DNA of 42,566 bases from positions 98,077-140,642 of the forward strand of contig JAJYDJ010000004.1 of the NCBI GenBank assembly GCA_021777565.1, written 5' to 3'. Each line of letters begins with the position of its first letter. Within the stretch, counting starts at the first letter, position 1. This document shows, piece after piece, positions 22,728-26,238 of this stretch. Below the pieces are notes generated by a model. The model did not search any database. It was not told the DNA's origin and saw only the letters and a program-made list of their open reading frames with translations. The stretch is from a bacterium (GTDB lineage: Bacteria > Patescibacteriota > Microgenomatia > Levybacterales > UBA12049). The translations under genes and the position numbers were made by a program.

Positions 22728-24548
22728 ATGAGTGATACAAATACTTCTAAACCACATATAACCTTAGATTTATTAGCTCTTGCAAGGGAGCATGTTGACC
22801 AGGTAACAAATAGTATTTCTGCTAAAAAAGATTTTGTTGATACACAGATAACTTACTTAAGAAAACGTATTATACATGCCCGCGGAGACGACAGAGATCA
22901 ATTCGAAGGAAGGTTGCTTCATGAGTTAGAAAATCAACGCATGATGGAAACTCAGATACAGTCTCCTTACTTTGTGCGCTGCGATGTTCACCTAGATGGA
23001 GAGCAACAAGCCAAAATTTGGTACTTTGGTAAATTCCCATTTCTTTCAGAATCAATCTATTCATGGGTTACACCAGCGGCAACAATTCGCTTTGAATCAC
23101 CTGGTAGATTTAGATACACAACCCCAGAAGGTGAAGACATTACTGGAGCATTGCTACGTAAAGATCAATTTCTGATTGTAAATAAGAAAATCCTTTTTAT
23201 GGCGACTGAGAATAAAGAGCAACAAAGAAAGTTAGTGTACCAAGAGTACTTTTCTCAAAAGAAAGATAGTTTTGCGTTAACAGAAATTGTGGAACAAATG
23301 GAAAAGGCACAGGATACAATTATTCGAGCACACCACAGAGGATCATTTTTAATATCTGGCCCTGCTGGTTCAGGAAAGACTACTCTTGCACTTCATCGGG
23401 TCGCATTCTTAGTACAATCACCAGATACATCCGCTTTATTCCCTGAAAAAGAAATAATTATTTTTGTTCAGGACAGAGTCACACAAGAGTACTTTGCGAA
23501 ATTACTTCCATCACTTGGTATTTATGATGTATCAATTACAACATTCGATCAATGGGCCATGAGCATTTTAGGGCTTACAAATGTGTCATATGCTATGAGA
23601 TCTTCTACGTCACTTGGCGAACTTGAGCTAGATGCATATGAATTTGCTAAGTATCAGTCAATGAAAGAGATTAAAAGTTATCCAACGAATCTGTTAAGGG
23701 TATTCGATTATTTAGAACAATGTTATGAAAAAGAATTCACTACTGAACAAAAAGAACTCTTTAAAAAACAAAAAAAAGCATTAATTCTAGATAGATTTGA
23801 TCTAACACTTCTTTTGAAAGCTACATTAAAGACAAAAGATAAACTCACTATACAGAAGGAGAAGTTCACACGCACTGCAAGTGGCAAATATACAAAAAAA
23901 CTGACTGATAAGGATGTTTCTTTTGCTCTTATGGTCATTGACGAAGCAGAAAATTATCTTCCAGAGCAGTTACAAATCTTCAAATCATGCAGCAATAAGC
24001 AAACTCAAGCGATCATTTATGTCGGTGATCTTGTCCAACAGACACTTCCATTCACGATTAAACAATGGGCTGACATTGAAGAAAAGTTTGACGATGAAAG
24101 GAAAGTAGTTCTTCAAAAGGTATATAGAAATACTAAACAAATCCTTGAATATATTAAAAGCCATGAATATGAAGTTGTTATTCCAGAAGAAGCTCGTGGA
24201 GGCGAAATGGTTGAAGAAATCGCAGAATCAAAAGTTAAAGAGCTGATTATTAACAAGCATATCAAGGATACAAGTATTGGCATACTTGCACAGTCTGAAC
24301 AATCCCTTGGTAAATATCGAAGGCTTCTGGATAGTTATAAAAATGTACATTGCTTCACTATCAATGAAGCTCAAGGAGTTGAATTCGACACAGTATTCCT
24401 GGTATCACCTCATAAGCCTGAGGATAATACGCATCATACTCAAAACAATGAGTTAATTAAAGAAAGAGAAAAGGTTAATCGCGACCTATTATATGTTGCA
24501 TACACACGAGCTATACAAAAGCTGTATATTGTAAAAGCTATATCATGA
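22728..24548 (+). CDS. HelD-like superfamily I helicase
   Basis: This is a 606-residue UvrD/Rep-type SF1 ATPase. The N-terminal region with YFVRCDVHLDGEQQ-like strands (about residues 80-105) recalls HelD/helicase IV proteins. SGPAGSGKTTL at about 210-220 is Walker A. MVIDEAENYLPEQ is Walker B, YVGDLVQQTLPF is motif III, KVYRNTKQIL is motif IV, NEAQGVEFDTVFL is motif V and LLYVAYTRAIQKLYIV is motif VI. HelD-type proteins act on RNA polymerase or on DNA in repair; which applies is unknown. It lies after the HD gene and is the last gene before the island's right border. Confidence 0.85.
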   Translation: MSDTNTSKPHITLDLLALAREHVDQVTNSISAKKDFVDTQITYLRKRIIHARGDDRDQFEGRLLHELENQRMMETQIQSPYFVRCDVHLDGEQQAKIWYFGKFPFLSESIYSWVTPAATIRFESPGRFRYTTPEGEDITGALLRKDQFLIVNKKILFMATENKEQQRKLVYQEYFSQKKDSFALTEIVEQMEKAQDTIIRAHHRGSFLISGPAGSGKTTLALHRVAFLVQSPDTSALFPEKEIIIFVQDRVTQEYFAKLLPSLGIYDVSITTFDQWAMSILGLTNVSYAMRSSTSLGELELDAYEFAKYQSMKEIKSYPTNLLRVFDYLEQCYEKEFTTEQKELFKKQKKALILDRFDLTLLLKATLKTKDKLTIQKEKFTRTASGKYTKKLTDKDVSFALMVIDEAENYLPEQLQIFKSCSNKQTQAIIYVGDLVQQTLPFTIKQWADIEEKFDDERKVVLQKVYRNTKQILEYIKSHEYEVVIPEEARGGEMVEEIAESKVKELIINKHIKDTSIGILAQSEQSLGKYRRLLDSYKNVHCFTINEAQGVEFDTVFLVSPHKPEDNTHHTQNNELIKEREKVNRDLLYVAYTRAIQKLYIVKAIS

Positions 24549-24701: not shown

Positions 24702-24730
24702 TTGACGTGACAAATTTGTAACCTCATACT
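24702..24730 (+). promoter_or_regulatory. Promoter of the tRNA-like RNA
   Basis: TTGACG (24702-24707) and CATACT (24725-24730) are separated by 17 bp. Transcription would begin about 12 nt before the RNA's 5' end, much like the tRNA-Gly promoter. Confidence 0.55.
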
Positions 24731-24748: not shown

Positions 24749-24853
24749 GCGCCCGTAGCTTATTTACAAGAGCGTGGTGTCTTTAAGCAAATGGGGAGCA
24801 ATCCCTGTAGACAAAAAGGTACTGAGGAGAGAGTGCAAGGCTTTCCGGGCGCA
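24749..24853 (+). ncRNA. tRNA-like RNA without an anticodon loop
   Basis: The 105 nt have a tRNA frame: acceptor GCGCCCG with CGGGCGC plus discriminator A, TA linker, D arm GCTT/GAGC with an 8-nt loop, and a T arm GAGAG-TGCAAGG-CTTTC with one G-U pair. The anticodon arm is replaced by a long hairpin. TGTCT (24778-24782) pairs with AGACA (24809-24813). An 8-nt one-sided bulge (TTAAGCAA) follows. Then ATGGGGA pairs with TCCCTGT through two G-U pairs around a GCAA tetraloop (24791-24808). No 7-nt anticodon loop exists. It has a promoter. It may be a non-coding tRNA relative or a decayed tRNA-Arg; the ends match tRNA-Arg. Confidence 0.6.
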
Positions 24854-24880
24854 TAAATTTACTTCAAGAAGCCTCCCTCT

Positions 24881-24907
24881 TTGCAATTTCTGAATTTCGA
24901 CTATACT
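24881..24907 (+). promoter_or_regulatory. Promoter of the glycosyltransferase gene
   Basis: TTGCAA (24881-24886) and TATACT (24902-24907) are 15 bp apart. Transcription would start about 24914, next to the ATG at 24916, which supports that start codon. Confidence 0.4.
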
Positions 24908-24915
24908 AGTAGTAT

Positions 24916-26238
24916 ATGGCACTTCCATATCTCCCTATTTTATTTGAAAGTTTTTGGCGGGATGAAGCATTTTCCGTCCTGATAGCCAGACACCAACCAC
25001 TTCAGATTATTCAACTCATGATGAAGGACCAGAGTCCGCCACTATACTTTTTACTCCTTCATTACTGGATGCAATGGTTTGGCATAGGAGAGGCACCAGT
25101 GAGAATGCTTTCATATATTTTATTTCTAGGAATTCTTGTTGCGACCTTTGTATTCTCCTGGAAAATTATGAAAACCATTCCTGGGAGGTTGGTATTTTTA
25201 GGTTTGTTGTATCTTAACCCATTTTTATTGCAGTATGCTTTTGAGGCAAGACCGTATGCGCTTTTTGCCTTTACGACCATCGTCGCAGCGGCAGCATTAG
25301 GGTTTAATCAGCTTTTTATTGCTAGTATTTTTCTTGCTCTTGGCATTCTTTCCCATAACTTCGCCGTCTTTGTTACCGCAGCTATTTTTGTCTGGTTTGT
25401 CTGGACAAGATACAAGACCTGGAAAACAAGTATCAAAGATTTCTTCTTACTTTTTACTCTTCCGGCGCTGACCTTTCTGGCATGGAGTGGTGCAATCTTT
25501 CAACAAGTGGCTAGGGTCAGTGCAAGTTTCTGGATCACTGAGAAGACGAGTGCCATGTATTACTATCTGTTTACGAGTTTTACCACCGGGTCTATTTGGT
25601 TTAAGACTCATGATATTCTCCAGTTCTTCTCAGTCACTCTATTAGTTCTGGGTGCTGCACCTCTTATTATGTCCTTTATCAAGAAAGAGACCATCAGTCC
25701 ATGGACCAAACTTGCTGTCTGTATTTCTCTTATTCCAATAATTTGTACCTATATCGTGTCTCACTTCAAAACCCCAATTTATTATGATCGTTACTTGATC
25801 GCGTCACTTCCTTTTGTATTTCTTTTGATGGCTCAAGGGATTGAGAAACTTATCAAAGAGGGAAGTATCGCGTGGAAAATATTCCTGTGCCTTTTTGTCT
25901 ATGCGTATGCACTTAGTCTTCTACTGGCATATCAGGATATTCAGCAAGCTTCTACCAAACCAGCCATCAACTGGGCAGTAGGGCAGGCGCTCCAAAGAGC
26001 AAAACCTCAAGACATGATCATCTCAGAAAGTGATCTTAACTTCCTTGAGACCAAATGGTACACACTCAACAACCCGTTACATATCAAAGCTCATATTGTC
26101 TCTCCATCAGGCACCATACCATACTATATTGGGGCTGCAGCCATAGAGCCAGGAGACGTGATCAAGTCTATCCCACCACACACCACCGTTTGGGTTATTC
26201 AACAAAATGGCGGCTACCACAAGGAAGTAACGAAGTAA
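24916..26238 (+). CDS. GT39-like membrane glycosyltransferase
   Basis: This 440-residue protein has about nine to ten hydrophobic segments. The SFWRDEAFS stretch at about residues 12-20 matches the acidic DE motif in the first external loop of GT-C enzymes (ArnT, PMT, GT39). These transfer sugar from a polyprenyl-phosphate donor outside the membrane. The usual first membrane helix before the DE motif is missing: two in-frame TAG codons lie just upstream (24907-24912), so no longer start exists. A promoter at 24881-24907 fits the ATG at 24916. It converges with ridA. Confidence 0.75.
   Translation: MALPYLPILFESFWRDEAFSVLIARHQPLQIIQLMMKDQSPPLYFLLLHYWMQWFGIGEAPVRMLSYILFLGILVATFVFSWKIMKTIPGRLVFLGLLYLNPFLLQYAFEARPYALFAFTTIVAAAALGFNQLFIASIFLALGILSHNFAVFVTAAIFVWFVWTRYKTWKTSIKDFFLLFTLPALTFLAWSGAIFQQVARVSASFWITEKTSAMYYYLFTSFTTGSIWFKTHDILQFFSVTLLVLGAAPLIMSFIKKETISPWTKLAVCISLIPIICTYIVSHFKTPIYYDRYLIASLPFVFLLMAQGIEKLIKEGSIAWKIFLCLFVYAYALSLLLAYQDIQQASTKPAINWAVGQALQRAKPQDMIISESDLNFLETKWYTLNNPLHIKAHIVSPSGTIPYYIGAAAIEPGDVIKSIPPHTTVWVIQQNGGYHKEVTK

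Follow-up and report, generated by a model that had tools for sequence, protein, structure and literature searches.

The window analyzed here is a 42,566-nt stretch (G000:C2:98077-140642) of a 1.02 Mb bacterial genome that is assembled in five contigs and 100% complete. The element under study occupies positions 24749-24853 of the forward strand, within a 367-nt intergenic gap bounded upstream by a gene encoding a UvrD-like helicase (22728-24548) and downstream by a gene encoding a membrane-protein-like product (24916-26238) for which no Pfam match was found. The helicase has weak similarity to the PADLOC defence-associated helicases RTasHel and GajB, and is probably an ordinary helicase. Upstream of the element is a promoter-like sequence, TTGACG-N17-CATACT (24702-24730, +), which the sequence-only reading had placed 12 nt before the RNA; the site is present, but 18 nt separate the end of its -10 hexamer from the RNA. 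Transcription beginning ~7 nt past the -10 would give a leader of ~12 nt before the putative RNA. For the expression asserted in the sequence-only reading, the evidence is this promoter-like match. Consensus matches to promoters are weak evidence, and here they arise by chance (five found, 1.4 expected). A second site of this kind, TTTGCA-N16-TATACT (24880-24907, +), also a consensus match only, lies directly before the next gene at 24916, which suggests that the RNA is not the leader of that gene. A consensus scan found no terminator behind the window copy.

How much of a tRNA is left in this RNA? The 109-nt sequence containing it folds with a minimum free energy (MFE) of -37.1 kcal/mol, compared with -28.3 ± 3.2 kcal/mol for dinucleotide shuffles (z -2.7; none of 200 shuffles was as good), whereas the fold of a 161-nt stretch with flanks is not unusual (z +0.3), and the structure is therefore confined to the element. 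The predicted fold is four-armed and tRNA-like: acceptor stem, U8 A9, D arm, an elongated arm where the anticodon arm would be, a short variable region, and a T arm whose stem stacks directly on the acceptor stem. The predicted mature form, 24749..24853, has no encoded CCA and has a homologue with identical ends (L002:1501-1605); its parts, all on the forward strand, are as follows. The acceptor stem pairs GCGCCCG (24749..24755) with CGGGCGC (24846-24852), 6 of the 7 pairs forming in the homologue, and the fold and the structure check against the homologue place the 3' strand plus the discriminator A73 at 24846..24853. U8 precedes a D arm of 4 bp with an 8-nt loop (24758..24773), in which, according to the fold and the alignment, A14 and A21 are kept and G18G19 are absent. 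The T arm (24829..24845) is taken as 5 bp with the 7-nt loop UGCAAGG, to which the MFE fold adds one extra U-G pair; T54 and A58 are kept, position 55 is G, and the homologue shows one compensatory double change, one broken pair and a loop that is identical at 6 of 7 positions. G10-C25 and purine 26 are also kept. The acceptor stem is close to that of the genome's tRNA-Arg genes. In the tRNA-Ile(UAU) gene of the same genome (L235, G000:C5:33561-33660), acceptor GCGCCCG/CGGGCGC and A73 are identical to those of the element, and this tRNA is a possible source of the frame.

The acceptor, D and T arms claimed in the sequence-only reading are present, the D and T arms being only partly tRNA-like. 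Lost in both copies are G18G19, U55 and the anticodon loop, and C56 is lost in the homologue; the D loops are AUUUACAA and ACCAGAUA, and the T loops UGCAAGG and UGAAAGG, in the window copy and the homologue, respectively. In tRNA the usual contacts between the D and T loops are those of G18G19 with positions 55 and 56, and with G18G19 and U55 lost, the usual elbow cannot form. Without a 7-nt anticodon loop and without these elbow contacts, normal decoding is excluded by anatomy, in agreement with the earlier statement that the RNA cannot read codons normally.

The hairpin capped by GCAA that was said to replace the 7-nt anticodon loop is seen in the fold, at the end of an arm whose best-fitting version is not the proposed 12 bp with an 8-nt bulge but a 10-bp lower helix, a symmetric 6x6 internal loop and a 7-bp hairpin. 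In the window copy this arrangement gives -34.0 kcal/mol, compared with -32.1 kcal/mol for 5 bp, an 8-nt bulge and 7 bp, with pair probabilities of 0.78 and 0.17, and the homologue forms 8 of the 10 lower pairs of the former but 3 of the 5 of the latter. The 5' strand of the lower helix (24775..24784) pairs with AAAGGUACUG (24815..24824), 9 of whose 10 letters are the same in the homologue, where the helix shows three one-sided compatible changes. The two sides of the internal loop, AAGCAA (24785..24790) and AGACAA (24809..24814), enclose the apical 7-bp hairpin (24791..24808), whose GNRA tetraloop is GCAA in the window and GAAA in the homologue, and which is fully paired in both copies with three compensatory double changes. 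CUUUAAGCAA resembles the anticodon arm of tRNA-Lys, possibly by chance.

Conservation in relatives had been set beforehand as a test, and one relative among the family genomes searched provides it. BLAST over 100 related genomes gave one meaningful match (G025 C84:12019-12123, E 2e-10), whose extent (query 50-154) is exactly that of the 105-nt element and which lies in MAG WY1.bin131, a member of another genus of the same family. The two copies are identical at 76 of 105 positions (72%), with no gaps and the same ends, and their local alignment score is 48, compared with 8.8 ± 1.8 for shuffles; tRNAs with the same anticodon in the two genomes are 65-93% identical (mean 82%), a range that includes the element. 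The 150-nt flanks on both sides score like shuffles when aligned, and tblastn found no shared gene neighbours, so that there is no recently shared segment and no conserved synteny. The GC content of the element is 0.51 in the window and 0.49 in the homologue, compared with ~0.33 and ~0.20 in the respective flanks. At a distance of 11 nt upstream, the homologue is preceded by the promoter-like TTTACT-N16-TATTAT, and 5 nt past its last base starts an intrinsic terminator, TAAGCCTTAATAGGCTTA followed by a T tract (one found, 0.1 expected).

Over the two copies 93.9% of structure cells are paired, compared with 53% for the best version in which the 3' partners were slid, and four pairs, three in the apical hairpin and one in the T stem, have changed on both sides. 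All 12 nucleotides of the internal loop are invariant, as are the inner CUUU/AAAG pairs of the lower helix that flank it. The compensatory changes that a covariance search was proposed to find are thus present in the apical hairpin and T stem of a single homologue; the observed covariation exceeds its control only to a moderate degree, being reached by 36 of 500 shuffles of the 3' letters, as is expected with two sequences. The homologue breaks four pairs (one in the acceptor, two in the lower arm and one in the T stem) and its own MFE fold leaves the lower helix open, so the helix 27-36/67-76 of the RNA is not proven; its contig has low coverage (cov 1.3), and therefore some mismatches may be sequencing errors.

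The RNA falls outside the known families with which it was compared. It has the 7-bp acceptor stem, 4-bp D stem and 5-bp T stem with 7-nt loop of tRNA (RF00005), but a long GNRA-capped hairpin instead of the 7-nt anticodon loop on a 5-bp stem; ARAGORN called four ordinary tRNAs in the window and missed the element, and Rfam returned no family at the element even at an E-value of 10, so that it reaches neither the gathering threshold nor recognition as a tRNA. There is no match to tmRNA (RF00023), the genuine tmRNA of the genome being at G000:C5:61661-62080, and no Rfam match to group I or group II introns. Two covariance models were used, one for the whole RNA and one for the arm only. The former was run over 82 genomes of the order (73 of the family) and overlapping samples of 374 class and 380 phylum genomes, and recovered only the window copy and its homologue, that is, 2 of the 73 family genomes; the other class and phylum matches listed have the 73-nt length of ordinary tRNAs. 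The arm model found no further member in the family, order, class and phylum samples, and its weak matches L266 and L267 are not tRNA-like. The motif TTTAAGCAA..AGACAAAAAG occurs in 98 stretches among 85,462 species genomes, of which a single one, on the homologue's contig (L107, JAKAEF010000009), combines the hairpin with the tRNA frame, the rest being chance matches. Motif scans of IMG/VR followed by the covariance model found no relative, and BLAST found no match among phage records and only short chance matches among plasmids. Either this RNA is very rare, then, or its further members are in lineages outside the samples.

The IMG/VR matches to the whole-RNA model comprise phage tRNAs, either ordinary or with an enlarged D arm, one tRNA-like RNA that is unrelated, and weak matches. 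The enlarged viral tRNAs are ~96-110 nt long, carry in the D arm an insertion of ~20-35 nt that is often hairpin-like, and by eye have Arg, Glu and Lys anticodons (L269:2151-2248(-), L271:3503-3600(+), L268:2398-2495(-), L273:11813-11922(-) and L272:9768-9863(+)). ARAGORN misses or misplaces most of them, and six IMG/VR contigs share a D-loop pattern, GTAGCTCAGTGGTMAA..AAGAGCRGC. Adjoining one of these tRNAs is a viral tRNA-like RNA (L272:9631-9719(+)) in which acceptor and D arm are intact, the T loop is altered and the anticodon arm is elongated; it is similar in design to the element but unrelated in arm sequence.

No description of such an RNA was found in the open-access literature, where the nearest natural bacterial pseudo-tRNA would appear to be tRNAOther of Bacillus cereus, which keeps a Trp anticodon and is found inside longer RNAs (PMC3399842). 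Like the element, tRNAOther is tRNA-like, stands outside translation and has a narrow distribution; unlike it, the element has its anticodon arm replaced and its gene looks stand-alone. The bacterial Y RNA YrlA, a tRNA mimic of 90-150 nt (PMC8394870), likewise joins D, T and acceptor-like arms to an extra stem, but its 5' and 3' ends form a long, Ro-binding stem, whereas the conserved boundaries of the element, which are its predicted ends, fall in the acceptor stem; its partner Ro/Rsr (PF05731) was not found in either genome that bears the element. As in tmRNA, a tRNA-like domain is part of a non-tRNA RNA, although the element lacks the alanine pair and is far shorter. An elongated anticodon stem is common to tRNA-Sec, allo-tRNA and tRNA-Pyl, and tRNA-Pyl of D. 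hafniense is also without G18, G19 and TPsiC, but these tRNAs keep the anticodon loop and decode (PMC7609411). The element shares its plan with the engineered 'tRNA scaffold' used for recombinant RNA (PMC3753655), where acceptor stem, T and D arms are kept and the anticodon stem-loop gives way to a foreign hairpin; the scaffold is artificial and is built on an ordinary tRNA, unlike the element, which has lost G18G19 and U55.

Could the element be a dying gene? An insertion into the anticodon arm of a former tRNA-Arg or tRNA-Ile, followed by decay, would account for the resemblance of its acceptor to tRNA-Ile(UAU) and the tRNA-Arg genes, for the missing elbow nucleotides, and for the four broken pairs in the homologue. 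Such decay would not be expected to leave, in two genera with no remaining flank similarity, the same rebuilt arm with its invariant 12-nt loop, compensatory changes, exact ends and, in one of them, a terminator of its own. A pseudogene is therefore unlikely, and the decayed tRNA-Arg suggested in the sequence-only reading is disfavoured. We give a similarly low probability to an aminoacylated tRNA that does not translate and instead feeds a tRNA-dependent transferase modifying cell wall, lipid or peptide. The acceptor stem and A73 that such a tRNA would use are kept, and loss of G18G19 also marks staphylococcal cell-wall tRNA-Gly. In E. coli, Arg identity depends on A20, the chief determinant, and C35 (PMC9976931); A20 is kept in the homologue but absent from the window copy, and the RNA has no anticodon for ArgRS or IleRS, a G3-C70 pair and not the G3-U70 of AlaRS, and no long variable arm for SerRS. 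By known identity rules, charging with an amino acid looks unlikely (PMC9976931), no such partner enzyme was recognised beside either copy, and the earlier suggestion of aminoacylation without translation is weakened accordingly.

It is very unlikely that the element is a cis-acting leader, riboswitch or attenuator-like, of the gene downstream. A co-directional gene does start 62-80 nt downstream in both genomes, but the products are different, membrane-protein-like in the window and an ArsR-like regulator in the other genome, the homologue has a terminator behind it, and the window gene has a separate promoter-like site before it. Just as improbable is a tRNA mimic that is mobile or related to phages, such as a decoy aimed at RNase P or at a tRNA-cutting defence: the patchy distribution and lack of shared neighbours would fit such an element, but no phage gene was recognised nearby, and the phage, plasmid and IMG/VR searches gave no relative. 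That the RNA is a precursor tRNA with an intron of ~31-33 nt is scarcely credible. Removal would leave ~72 nt and allow a 5-bp stem (27-31/72-76) in the window copy, but one pair of that stem is broken in the homologue, position 33 would be C and not U, G18G19 and U55 are lost anyway, the intron would be far below the size of group I or group II introns, and the tRNA splicing endonuclease (PF01974) was not found in either genome.

The element has the look of a genuine, rare noncoding RNA of tRNA origin and not of a dying gene. It probably comes from a tRNA-derived, stand-alone gene for a noncoding RNA, and displays its conserved loop to a putative partner; among the three options first offered for it, a tRNA-derived regulator fares best, given the compensatory changes in the homologue and its own terminator. 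More tentatively, it could be viewed as a natural 'tRNA scaffold', an undescribed family in which a receptor-like hairpin with an invariant 6x6 loop has replaced the anticodon arm, and in which tRNA maturation serves to produce a stable RNA that regulates or binds protein. The tRNA frame would consist of the acceptor stem with the T and D arms, and from the acceptor/T stack we infer that RNase P and 3'-processing enzymes could mature the transcript, its ends being protected by the frame. The longer hairpin would present the invariant, A-rich internal loop under its GNRA cap as a likely binding surface for a putative protein or RNA partner, and this loop is a definite bait for a partner search. 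Standard tRNA and Rfam searches miss RNAs of this kind. If this reading is true, the laboratory tRNA scaffold would have a precedent in nature, and a tRNA would have been turned into a noncoding RNA through replacement, not mere mutation, of its anticodon arm.
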